Assembly (NCBI GenBank): GCA_016186945.1
Contig: JACPKR010000051.1
Coordinates: 1-14,624, forward strand
Origin: Deltaproteobacteria bacterium
GTDB taxonomy: Bacteria > Bdellovibrionota_B > Oligoflexia > Oligoflexales > Bog-1112
Direction: 5' to 3'
DNA length: 14,624 bases
Shown here: positions 1,671 through 14,624 of the stretch, one piece after another
Position numbering within the stretch: the first letter of the stretch is position 1
How the letters are laid out: the number at the start of each line of letters is the position of its first letter
Program-made: the position numbers and the translations under genes
The notes under the pieces: generated by a model
Database searches by the model: none
What the model was told of the DNA's origin: nothing
The model's input: only the letters and a program-made list of their open reading frames with translations

Positions 1671-1686
1671 CTAAGCTCCTTGTTTG

Positions 1687-1820
1687 GCATTGCGTAAGCC
1701 ACTCGGGGCAAGGAGGTGGTTTGGAGGAAACTGCGCAGCTGGTTCCTCCATGAAACCCGCAGGAGGCGACGGCCTCGCCCCTCCAAACCTCCCTCTCCCT
1801 AAGATGGGGTGTCGCATTAC
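1687..1820 (-). repeat. Dispersed palindromic repeat, copy 1 (inverted relative to copies 2 and 3)
   Basis: This copy begins GCATTGCGTAAGCC and ends GTCGCATTAC. Internally it has the GGCAAGGAGGTGGTTTGGAGG block, the GAAACTGCGCAGCTGGTTCC block and a C-rich end. Its reverse complement lines up along its full length with the repeats at 7452-7597 and 13429-13563. The right terminal repeat has diverged. It fills most of the gap between divergent ung and the GTPase gene. No target duplication is visible at this copy. Confidence 0.85.
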
Positions 1821-7442: not shown

Positions 7443-7606
7443 AAACGTTTTGTAATACGTAAGCCACTTGGGGCAAAAAGGGAGAGGGGGGTTTGGGGGG
7501 GCGAGGGAACCGTCGCTCCCCCATGATTTTTCTTGGAGGAACCAGCTGCGCAGTTTCCTCCAAACCACCTCCTTGCCCCAAGTGGCTTACGCATTACAAA
7601 CGTTTT
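7443..7606 (+). mobile_element. MITE-like palindromic repeat, copy 2, with 9-bp target duplication
   Basis: The element spans 7452-7597. Its ends are 25-bp terminal inverted repeats (7452-7476 and 7573-7597) that differ at one base; each reads GTAATGCGTAAGCC or GTAATACGTAAGCC inward from the outer edge. The nine bases AAACGTTTT flank it directly on both sides (7443-7451 and 7598-7606), as expected of a target-site duplication. A second, inner inverted repeat TTGGAGGAA/TTCCTCCAA lies at 7533-7541 and 7555-7563. At 146 bp it encodes no transposase, so it must be mobilised in trans if still active. Terminal GTAA and an 8-9 bp duplication recall IS66-type elements, but that link is a guess. Removing it leaves only 31 bases between accB and accC. 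Confidence 0.9.
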
Positions 7607-11820: not shown

Positions 11821-13404
11821 ATGAATGCGCAAAAACCGTTTAGTCCTCATTGGGCCGACATCGCAGCTTTCCAAGTTGTTCAGAACAAGGGGGATAAAGA
11901 CACATACACCGCGGCAAGTGGAATTACACCCAGTGGGACGGTGCATGTTGGCAATTTTCGAGAAGTCATAACGGTCGACCTGGTGGTGCGAGCCTTGCGA
12001 AGCTTGGGGAAAAACGTCCGCTTCATCTATAGCTGGGATAACTTCGACACGTTCCGCAAGGTTCCCAAGAACCTGCCGGACCCGGAAGCGTTTCAACCCC
12101 ATCTGCGCAAACCTATAGCCCGTATCCCCGACCCTTGGGGATTGGAAGCCACCTATGCCAAAGGTCGCATGGCCTTGTTCGAGAAAGAACTGGCGCAAGT
12201 AGGGATAAGCCCCGAGTACATTTCCCAGGAACAACGCTACTCGTCAGGCACCTATGCAAAAGACATTCGCTTTGCCTTGGAAAAGAAGGATCAAATCCGA
12301 GAGATACTCGACCGCTTCCGTACGCAAGCATTGTCTGAGGATTGGCTGCCGACAGCGATTTATTGCAGCAAGTGCCAAAAAGATGAAATGGAGTACGAAC
12401 GATACAATGGAGAGTGGACTTATTCCTACAAATGCAAGTCGTGCGGGCTGGAAGAACGTGTCGATATCCGCAAGACCCTTAACCTCAAGTTGGCTTGGCG
12501 TATCGACTGGCCCATGCGCTGGGCTTTTGAAGGAGTGGACTTCGAGCCAGGGGGCAAAGACCACTCCAGTGAGGGAGGCTCCTTCGACTCGGGGAAACAA
12601 ATCGTCAAGGAAGTCTGGGGCAAAGATCCCCCACAGTACCTTCAATACGACTTCGTTATGATCAAAGGCGGAGCAGGTAAAATGTCGTCCTCCTCCGGAG
12701 AACTCTACACCTTGTCCCAGGTGCTTGAAGTCTACGAACCCCAGATCGTGCGCTGGATTTTCGCCAACCATCGTCCTAACCACGACTTCGCTCTCGCTTT
12801 CGACGAAGACGTCTTCAAGGTCTACGATGAGTTCGACAAGGCGGAATCCATGGCCCTCGCTCCCGCTCCTCACCGCCCTGGCAAGTGGCCGCTGCTACGA
12901 CGGACTTACGAATTGTCACTGCCTGACGGAAAGTTGCCAAGTGAAATGCCCCAACGACCGAAGTTCCGTGAACTCTGCAGCCGCTTGCAAATCTGCGGAG
13001 GTGACACCGAAAGGACATGGGAGAAATTCTATAAAAACGAAATGGGGGAAAGCAAGAAACCCTATTTCATGCTCCGCGCTCTACGTGCGTGGCACTGGCT
13101 GTCGGAATACGCTCCGGAAGATTTCCGCTATCACCTGCAGGAGAAAAAACCCGAGGGGCTGACCTCACAAGAGGAACAAATCCTAAGCGCCCTGCGCAAT
13201 CTTGTCAGTACTGTCGATCTGGAAACGATCGGTGAACAAGACTTGGGAAACCTCATTTGGGAAAAAGTCATAAAAGCTTTGAATGGTGATGCCAAGCAAA
13301 CCTTTACCACGATTTACAGGTCTTTGATCGGCAGAGACCAAGGACCCCGGCTGCCGAATTTTTTGAAGGAAATTGGCAAAGAAAGACTGATGGAGTTACT
13401 CTAA
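11821..13404 (+). CDS. lysS: Lysyl-tRNA synthetase, class I
   Basis: The enzyme charges tRNA-Lys with lysine. This is the class I form, unrelated in fold to the class II LysRS of E. coli. The Rossmann-fold HIGH-type motif is PSGTVHVGN at 37-45. The KMSKS-type motif is GKMSSSSG at 286-293. A zinc-type knuckle lies between them (Cys182, Cys185, Cys205, Cys208). The 527-residue length fits the class I family. The start ATG follows an AAAGG at nine bases. The symbol lysK is used for this form in some genomes. The lipoprotein gene with repeat copy 3 follows directly and may share the transcript. The identification is firm from both signature motifs. Confidence 0.96.
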   Translation: MNAQKPFSPHWADIAAFQVVQNKGDKDTYTAASGITPSGTVHVGNFREVITVDLVVRALRSLGKNVRFIYSWDNFDTFRKVPKNLPDPEAFQPHLRKPIARIPDPWGLEATYAKGRMALFEKELAQVGISPEYISQEQRYSSGTYAKDIRFALEKKDQIREILDRFRTQALSEDWLPTAIYCSKCQKDEMEYERYNGEWTYSYKCKSCGLEERVDIRKTLNLKLAWRIDWPMRWAFEGVDFEPGGKDHSSEGGSFDSGKQIVKEVWGKDPPQYLQYDFVMIKGGAGKMSSSSGELYTLSQVLEVYEPQIVRWIFANHRPNHDFALAFDEDVFKVYDEFDKAESMALAPAPHRPGKWPLLRRTYELSLPDGKLPSEMPQRPKFRELCSRLQICGGDTERTWEKFYKNEMGESKKPYFMLRALRAWHWLSEYAPEDFRYHLQEKKPEGLTSQEEQILSALRNLVSTVDLETIGEQDLGNLIWEKVIKALNGDAKQTFTTIYRSLIGRDQGPRLPNFLKEIGKERLMELL

Positions 13405-13428
13405 TACGTGCCAAATAGGGAGGAGAAG

Positions 13429-13563
13429 GTAATGCGTAAGCCACTTGGGGCAAATAGGGAGAGGGGGGTTTGGGGGGCGAGTGAAGCGTCGCCTCCCCCG
13501 GATTTCTTGGAGGAACCAGCTGCGCAGTTTCCTCCAAACCACCTCCTTGCCCCAAGTGGCTTA
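13429..13563 (+). repeat. Dispersed palindromic repeat, copy 3 (right end truncated)
   Basis: The sequence begins GTAATGCGTAAGCC, as copy 2 does, and follows it through the central GGAACCAGCTGCGCAGTTTCC block to CCCCAAGTGGCTTA. The last eight bases (CGCATTAC) are missing and are replaced by lipoprotein-gene sequence. There is no stop in the frame that continues into that gene. Bases 13402-13425 just before it (TAATACGT...GGGAGGAG) also resemble a shortened left end of the repeat, so two insertions may be nested. Confidence 0.85.
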
Positions 13564-14022
13564 ATCAAACTATTGCCGGTCATCCTTTTCACCAGCTCAA
13601 TTCTCGGTTGTACAATACTCAAAGAAACCCTGGGATTTGTTGCCCAGAAGCCGAAAGTTGTGATCGAAAGCATCCGCATCGCAAAGGTCGATCTTAAGGA
13701 ACTGAAACTGGAAGTTCACCTTTCGGTTGAAAACCCCAACGCCTTTGACCTCGTCTTGTCCGACCTGCACTATTCAGTCAATATTCACGACAGTGATGTA
13801 GCTTCGGGAATCCACAAAGATGAACTCAAAGTCGCAGCTTACGAGAAAAAAACAATCGAAATCCCCCTTAGCATCCAAACCCAAAACACCCTCCAAGTCC
13901 TCGGGCGCATTCTCTTTGAACGCAAACCCATCCCCCTTCATTGGCAAGGCCAGGCAAATTTCCACTCTCCCATCGGACCCATGATCGTGAAATTCTCAGA
14001 TCAGAAGGAAATAACACTCTGA
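13432..14022 (+). CDS. LEA14/WHy-domain lipoprotein with a repeat-encoded N-terminal extension
   Basis: From ATG 13432 the product is 196 residues. Residues 1-44 are translated from repeat copy 3 (for example RERGVWGASEASPPPDF). After them comes a normal lipoprotein signal, KLLPVILFTSSILGC, with lipidation Cys60. The mature part is an LEA14/WHy-type domain: strands around VVIESIRIAKVDLKELKLEV, the family motif ENPNAFDLVLSDLHYSV at about 102-118, then ELKVAAYEKKTIEIPL. Such proteins bind or protect other envelope components in some bacteria, but the role here is unknown. AGGAG at 13421-13425 is six bases before the ATG. A later TTG at about 13574 would restore a short signal peptide but has no ribosome-binding site. 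The insertion probably removed the original start, so export could be reduced. Confidence 0.8.
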   Translation: MRKPLGANRERGVWGASEASPPPDFLEEPAAQFPPNHLLAPSGLIKLLPVILFTSSILGCTILKETLGFVAQKPKVVIESIRIAKVDLKELKLEVHLSVENPNAFDLVLSDLHYSVNIHDSDVASGIHKDELKVAAYEKKTIEIPLSIQTQNTLQVLGRILFERKPIPLHWQGQANFHSPIGPMIVKFSDQKEITL

Positions 14023-14051
14023 ATTTCTTGGAGGAACGAGCTGCGCAGTTG
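14023..14051 (+). repeat. Fragment of the dispersed palindromic repeat
   Basis: ATTTCTTGGAGGAACGAGCT and the following GCGCAGTT match the centre of copy 3 (13501-13529) with one substitution. Neither end of the repeat is present. It starts just after the lipoprotein stop codon. It is best read as a decayed remnant. Confidence 0.75.
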
Positions 14052-14102: not shown

Positions 14103-14624
14103 ATGCACTATGCGAGAATGATTAAGTGTCCTGAGAAGAGCTTTTTCCTTTTCGGCCCGAGGGGGACAGGAAAATCCACGTGGCTGCGGGAAACGTTTCC
14201 TAACGCAACTTGGGTAGACCTTTTGGACGAGAGAAAATTTCAAGCCTATCTCGCGGACCCCTGCCTTTTCGCCGGCGTGTTGGAAGCTGCACCTGACAAC
14301 TCCTGGGTCGTCGTAAATGAAATCCACCGTCTGCCCAACCTGTTGAATGAGGTACACAGATTTATTGAAAAGAAAGGCCTGCTCTTTGCCTTAAGCGGAT
14401 CCGGTGCAAGGAAACTTAAACGCTCGGGAATCAACCTGCTGGCAGGAAGAGCCTCAAGAAAATTTCTACCTATTCGAAGGATGGTTTTTGACGTCCTCCC
14501 CACGGCTAAAGCCGGGGGATTCCTATATCACTTTAGATACAGCGTTTCACGCCCGAAACGGAGAATGTTCAGCATGGAAGCACCCACTCTCTTAGATGCT
14601 AGATTTCACAGGCTCTCGCCTCCC
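14103..14624 (+). pseudogene. AAA_14-type ATPase gene, probably broken; frame open to the window end
   Basis: From ATG 14103, with GAGG five bases upstream, the frame reads an AAA_14 (COG1373-like) ATPase start. The Walker A motif GPRGTGKST is at 18-26. VDLLDERKFQAYLADP at about 38-53 is typical. LFALSGSGARKLKRSGINLLAGRA at 94-117 holds the sensor region. The Walker B position reads VVVNEIHRLP, with Asn72 where the family has Asp (VVIDE), which should weaken ATP hydrolysis. After about residue 117 family resemblance is lost in this frame but seems to continue in the +1 frame (ENFYLFEGWFL), suggesting a one-base deletion. From about 14493 the sequence is an IS200/IS605-type end. No stop occurs before 14624. 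Family members are often toxin-like or NTPase genes in mobile regions. Confidence 0.6.
14493..14624 (-). mobile_element. IS200/IS605-type element end (partial)
   Basis: GACGTCCTCCCCACGGCTAA and the following AGCCGGGGGATTC form the hairpin CCCC-A-CGGC-TAAA-GCCG-GGGG, the usual subterminal structure of IS200/IS605 elements. It normally follows the tnpB stop codon. On the minus strand a frame open from the window edge ends at 14592 (last residues REPVKSSI). It could be the end of tnpB, but ten residues cannot prove it. The element would have inserted into the AAA_14 gene. Confidence 0.6.

Follow-up and report, generated by a model that had tools for sequence, protein, structure and literature searches.

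Rickettsia palindromic elements (RPEs) are mobile palindromic repeats of about 150 bp that carry an open peptide and lie in frame within unrelated protein genes (PMC10969869, a review). The host repeat described here resembled RPEs, as judged from their description, in its similar size, its mobile palindrome, and its in-frame reading in host proteins, and in-frame insertion into protein genes was found for the copy at a lipoprotein gene (copy 3; Table 1) and for other fused copies. Unlike RPEs, the host repeat had most of its copies outside genes, its fusions mainly at gene starts, and clear 8-bp target duplications.

IS66 elements have ends starting GTAAGCG, with 8-bp repeats (PMC11946415). 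Judged by this criterion (PMC11946415), IS66-family miniature elements (MITEs) and the host repeat had in common ends starting GTAA plus 8-bp target duplications, while the host end repeat GTAATGCG differed from the GTAAGCG of IS66. As for a full-length IS or its transposase, no match to the IS66 transposase (PF03050) was found in the 91%-complete host genome, and the repeat was therefore not filed as IS66. The comparison was also applied to REP/REPIN sequences: the palindromic core GGAGGAACCAGCTGCGCAGTTTCCTCC also occurred in relatives G005 and G007, where it was not accompanied by these ends, and the host had Y1 transposase genes. REPs are not known to make 8-bp target duplications, and the full host repeat, unlike REP/REPIN, displayed both inverted ends and such duplications. 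Many end-less core palindromes were located near gene ends in G005 and G007; in the host (G000), four Y1 transposase (PF01797) matches, one of them broken, were found on contigs C40, C76, and C52, and the genome was rich in REP-like cores.

The analysed window (14,624 nucleotides) was one whole contig from the 2.66-Mb draft genome (76 contigs; 91% complete) of an uncultured Oligoflexales bacterium. Its lysS gene served as the search query for the lysS–LEA_2 loci of relatives, and the best lysS relatives in named records were Oligoflexales/Oligoflexia or Deltaproteobacteria MAGs. The Rfam search of the window gave zero matches, and promoter and terminator scans gave results at or near chance level.

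Table 1. Features of the window at and around the repeat–lipoprotein fusion
Feature	Position	Strand	Basis
Copy 1 of the repeat, opposite orientation, approximate boundaries	1684..1819	-	Inverted pairs I1, I2, I6, and I10
Copy 2 (type 2) of the repeat, located between accB and accC, with direct repeat AAACGTTTT at flanks	7452..7597	+	Sequence and arms
lysS, class I lysine-tRNA ligase; adjoins the lipoprotein gene on its 5′ side and shares its frame	11821..13404	+	PF01921, E=1.6e-117; adjacent to the LEA_2 gene in several relatives
GTG, candidate native lipoprotein start, in frame, 3 nt past the lysS stop	13408..13410	+	Sequence; joined flanks; start spacing in relatives
AGGAG, Shine-Dalgarno-like, 6 nt 5′ of ATG 13432; or ordinary codons of the native leader	13421..13425	+	Sequence
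Copy 3 of the MITE-like repeat; type 1 in orientation A, with 135 of 144 nt retained	13429..13563	+	Alignment to consensus
Left terminal inverted repeat GTAATGCGTAAGCCACTTGGGGCAA	13429..13453	+	End-repeat matches
ATG within left end repeat, candidate current start	13432..13434	+	Sequence; reading open to 14019
G6 run (G7 in consensus); the one-base loss connects the ATG frame with the FLEEPAAQ frame	13472..13477	+	Consensus alignment
Right end repeat without outer CGCATTAC	13542..13563	+	End-repeat comparison
Native part of LEA_2 lipoprotein gene with hydrophobic segment, lipobox ILGC, and stop	13564..14022	+	PF03168, E=2.2e-11

The repeat was a species-specific, MITE-like element. It had terminal inverted repeats of 25 nt beginning GTAA, a full length of 144–146 bp, and no internal transposase. 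The end sequence AAGCCACTTGGGGCAA (at most two mismatches) had 153 + 156 matches in the host genome (309), whereas its reversed control had 0 + 1. The full 25-nt end was absent from all 42 further genomes of the order covered by the search. The family comprised at least 160 dispersed copies, and 161 distinct ones, drawn from stretches fetched around known repeat places, were examined. Two types were recognized: (i) type 1 of 144 nt, whose pattern GAAGCGTCGCCTCCCCC matched 95 places (at most one mismatch), and (ii) type 2 of 146 nt, whose pattern GAACCGTCGCTCCCCC matched 106 places; a few places may be counted under both patterns because these differ at few bases. Mobility was evident from 8-bp target duplications: with exact end positions of the copies, 7–8 of the 8 flanking bases matched in 21 of 65 paired copies versus 3 of 5000 shuffled pairs.

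Several structural variants were observed within the family. The end repeats were of at least three types (GTAATGCGTAAGCCACTT, GTAACCCGTAAGGCATTT, and GTAAAGCGTAAGCCAACC), and individual copies may combine two different end types, as though ends had been swapped. L069 and L085 were 77-nt copies, scarcely more than both end repeats. L033, L048, and L083 were fused to C-terminal gene ends, the ORF continuing into the repeat; named from sequence, these ORFs were aspartokinase-like, alanine-racemase-like, and methyltransferase-like, respectively.

Compared to the type-1 consensus, copy 3 showed zero substitutions and differed by one G of the G7 run plus the last 8 nt. In orientation A, the consensus had a stop in the frame of the end-repeat ATG; owing to the lost G and the trimmed right end, copy 3 was 135 nt (3 × 45) long, and the lipoprotein frame contained no stop anywhere from 13405 to 14019. 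The sequence-only reading had described a mobile repeat running in frame into the lipoprotein, and the identity of the repeat and its open frame bore this out; one repeat copy did start at 13429 as proposed, while the consensus alignment placed its end at 13563 instead of 13620. The further elements of that description, namely GTAATGCG, ATG 13432, AGGAG at 13421–13425, the KLLPVILFTSSILGC segment, Cys60 (TGT at 13609–13611), and the 44 codons between ATG 13432 and 13563, were all found in the sequence. A solo repeat-core fragment ATTTCTTGGAGGAACGAGCTGCGCAGTT at 14023–14050 started right at the 3′ side of the lipoprotein stop codon, so that repeat sequence was present at both ends of the gene. 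Further downstream (14104–14560), an AAA_14 ATPase gene started, and its frame soon entered CCCCACGGCTAAAGCCGGGGGATTCC, which we take to resemble the hairpin end of an IS200/IS605-type element; this gene was possibly interrupted.

A target duplication was absent at copy 3, and for this reason we infer the insertion history there, together with the order of its events. The probable explanation is that a MITE with IS66-like ends inserted behind lysS, and that two small losses left a 45-codon in-frame fusion to the LEA_2 lipoprotein, with ATG 13432 as the most likely start. Such a non-autonomous DNA transposon would have entered just 3′ of lysS, at or within the beginning of the LEA_2 leader. Inserted cleanly, it would have brought 144 + 8 = 152 nt and shifted the frame, and the repeat would also have carried a stop in the reading used by copy 3. 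The proposed losses are one G of G7 and, at the right junction, 16 nt made up of the last 8 nt of the repeat and the 8-nt target duplication, the net gain being 135 nt (45 codons) provided that no native sequence was lost. The lost G would bring the end-repeat ATG into the frame continuing to the lipoprotein, and the gene would then be read across the repeat and on into the native signal peptide. Of the candidate starts, ATG 13432 would most likely be used, positioned by AGGAG 13421; GTG 13408 may be a second or the native one. If made, lipidated, and exported, the protein would carry about 59–67 residues ahead of the lipidation Cys, where about 20 are usual.

The native part of the gene was a LEA_2 lipoprotein by both domain (PF03168: 44.5 bits versus a cut-off of 25.4) and signal: the lipobox ILGC followed a hydrophobic leader where the hydropathy peak was located, and its Cys (Cys60) was invariant across 11 aligned sequences. 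LEA_2 lipoproteins beside lysS in Oligoflexales were alike in domain, Cys, and gene order, while the leader in the window was longer by 45 codons: relatives' LEA_2 genes adjoining lysS had leaders of about 17–24 residues before the invariant Cys (that of the same-genus genome being MRRPLRSILLCTLLPFMTGGC), and the 45-codon extension was absent from them. An orthologue with the same extension but no repeat, which the sequence-only reading had named as a refuting outcome, was looked for among lysS-adjacent orthologues, in genomes lacking the repeat ends, and none was found. The proposal that the insertion had rescued the gene was unsupported; the family is conserved beside lysS even where the repeat is absent, and hence no rescue was needed.

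The conserved order also bears on a repeat-driven mis-join of the assembly, which we consider very improbable. The genome was a 76-contig draft, several contigs started within copies (e.g., C16, C66, and C70 at base 51), and repeats this long can mislead assemblers; against this, lysS followed by LEA_2 was the order in relatives, which argues that the join across the repeat is correct, and the G6 variant was present in five independent copies.

The start codon was examined by joining the flanks of copy 3 without the repeat, which gave GTG-(M)PNREEKIKLLPVILFTSSILGC, a complete normal 23-residue leader in frame; the empty site expected for a net 135-nt insertion behind a GTG start would read AGGAGAAGATCAAAC. 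The lipoprotein ORF was also open from GTG 13408, on which the sequence-only reading was silent. Its proposal of a start provided by the repeat was supported only in part: a proven sole start within the repeat was dropped, GTG 13408 being in frame and the joined flanks restoring the leader. Because they did so, the native start may survive with the repeat inside the leader, as a 45-codon in-frame insertion. Taken further, initiation would still occur at GTG 13408 through coupling to lysS termination, leaving the ATG of the repeat unused; this is rather less likely than a start at ATG 13432. Besides the restored leader, LEA_2 starts in lysS-adjacent relatives (0–24 nt past the lysS stop) are consistent with it in part, those of L233, L234, and L225 lying 0–5 nt past the stop. 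The ATG with AGGAG at 6 nt nevertheless looks better than the GTG, whose nearest GGAG was 12 nt upstream, and is probably the better start for the present gene. Some relatives started 17–24 nt past the stop, among them L232 with its own AGGAG; for this reason, AGGAG in the window could be the native Shine-Dalgarno sequence of a native start lost with the right junction. The nucleotide alignment of the lysS–LEA junction with the same-genus genome was very gappy and did not fix the native start. A start at TTG 13574, which had been named as a contrary outcome, was unlikely: Lys would be lost, only 11 residues would precede the Cys, and no adjacent Shine-Dalgarno match was found.

An open frame across copy 3 is by itself weak evidence for anything beyond chance, because 119 of 152 end-repeat ATG readings were open to the far end of their copy. 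Type 1 in the orientation of copy 3 had just 19 of 43 such readings open. It is conceivable, and we regard it as unlikely, that the insertion is recent and neutral or damaging, with the gene silenced or its product unexported and the frame open by luck. Copy 3, having zero substitutions relative to the consensus, was a recent insertion, and the intact fused ORF thus says little about selection for the frame correction, which may have acted. The same reading fits a leader of at least 59 residues and the predicted RNA fold of the whole region (−90 kcal/mol; z −3.9), in which AGGAG and ATG were buried by pairing and translation may thereby be lowered; the fold of the start region alone was weak, which speaks against it. 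So do the 135 nt, which demand two separate length changes, and the behaviour of the five G6 copies.

Type-1 G6 copies were in frame with the downstream gene in 5/5 cases versus 12/76 of the others (p=2.4e-4; post hoc), and the fused genes encoded the LEA_2 lipoprotein, a FlgA-like protein (L111), a queuosine synthesis protein (L075), and two radical SAM proteins (L097 and L107). This and the following association tests were framed post hoc, with a crude gene caller and few copies: (i) phase-corrected type-1 copies in the orientation of copy 3 had an in-frame downstream gene (at least 80 codons) in 8/13 versus 3/30 of the rest (p=0.001; post hoc); (ii) open readings with a downstream gene had it in the end-repeat ATG frame in 16/26, against one third expected (p=0.003; post hoc); and (iii) a Shine-Dalgarno-like stretch preceded the end-repeat ATG in 8/16 fused readings versus 20/136 others (p=1e-4; post hoc).

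In L075, L097, and L050, the fused gene retained its own ATG immediately 3′ of the repeat, and read-through there need not matter; only the lipoprotein gene of the window, and perhaps L111 and L107, would depend on the fusion. L111 (L111:836-) was a right-truncated G6 copy fused to the FlgA-like protein, with a hydrophobic leader STLVFLLLSIRAWG that had no ATG of its own; the alignment of FlgA orthologues failed across the leader region and so gave no date for this fusion. Because a few frame-corrected sibling copies also ran into host genes, repeat-born protein starts look recurrent in the host genome, as far as sequence can tell. In a bolder form, for which we see little likelihood, the family would be a mobile start-of-protein module with an inward ATG at each end, mostly open readings, and slippage in the G7 run setting the phase, and insertion between ribosome site and gene plus one-base slippage would repeatedly create or switch fused N-termini, possibly reversibly.

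Small mobile repeats captured in frame by protein genes are known chiefly from Rickettsia, while the host repeat family was large, young, and species-specific in a lineage of free-living type, with a frame correction that was legible base by base. This correction in the G run is the most interesting aspect of the repeat–lipoprotein fusion. If confirmed, the fusion would offer a way to test how frequently new protein N-termini arise from mobile repeats, and whether a leader of three times the normal length is tolerated by a lipoprotein.
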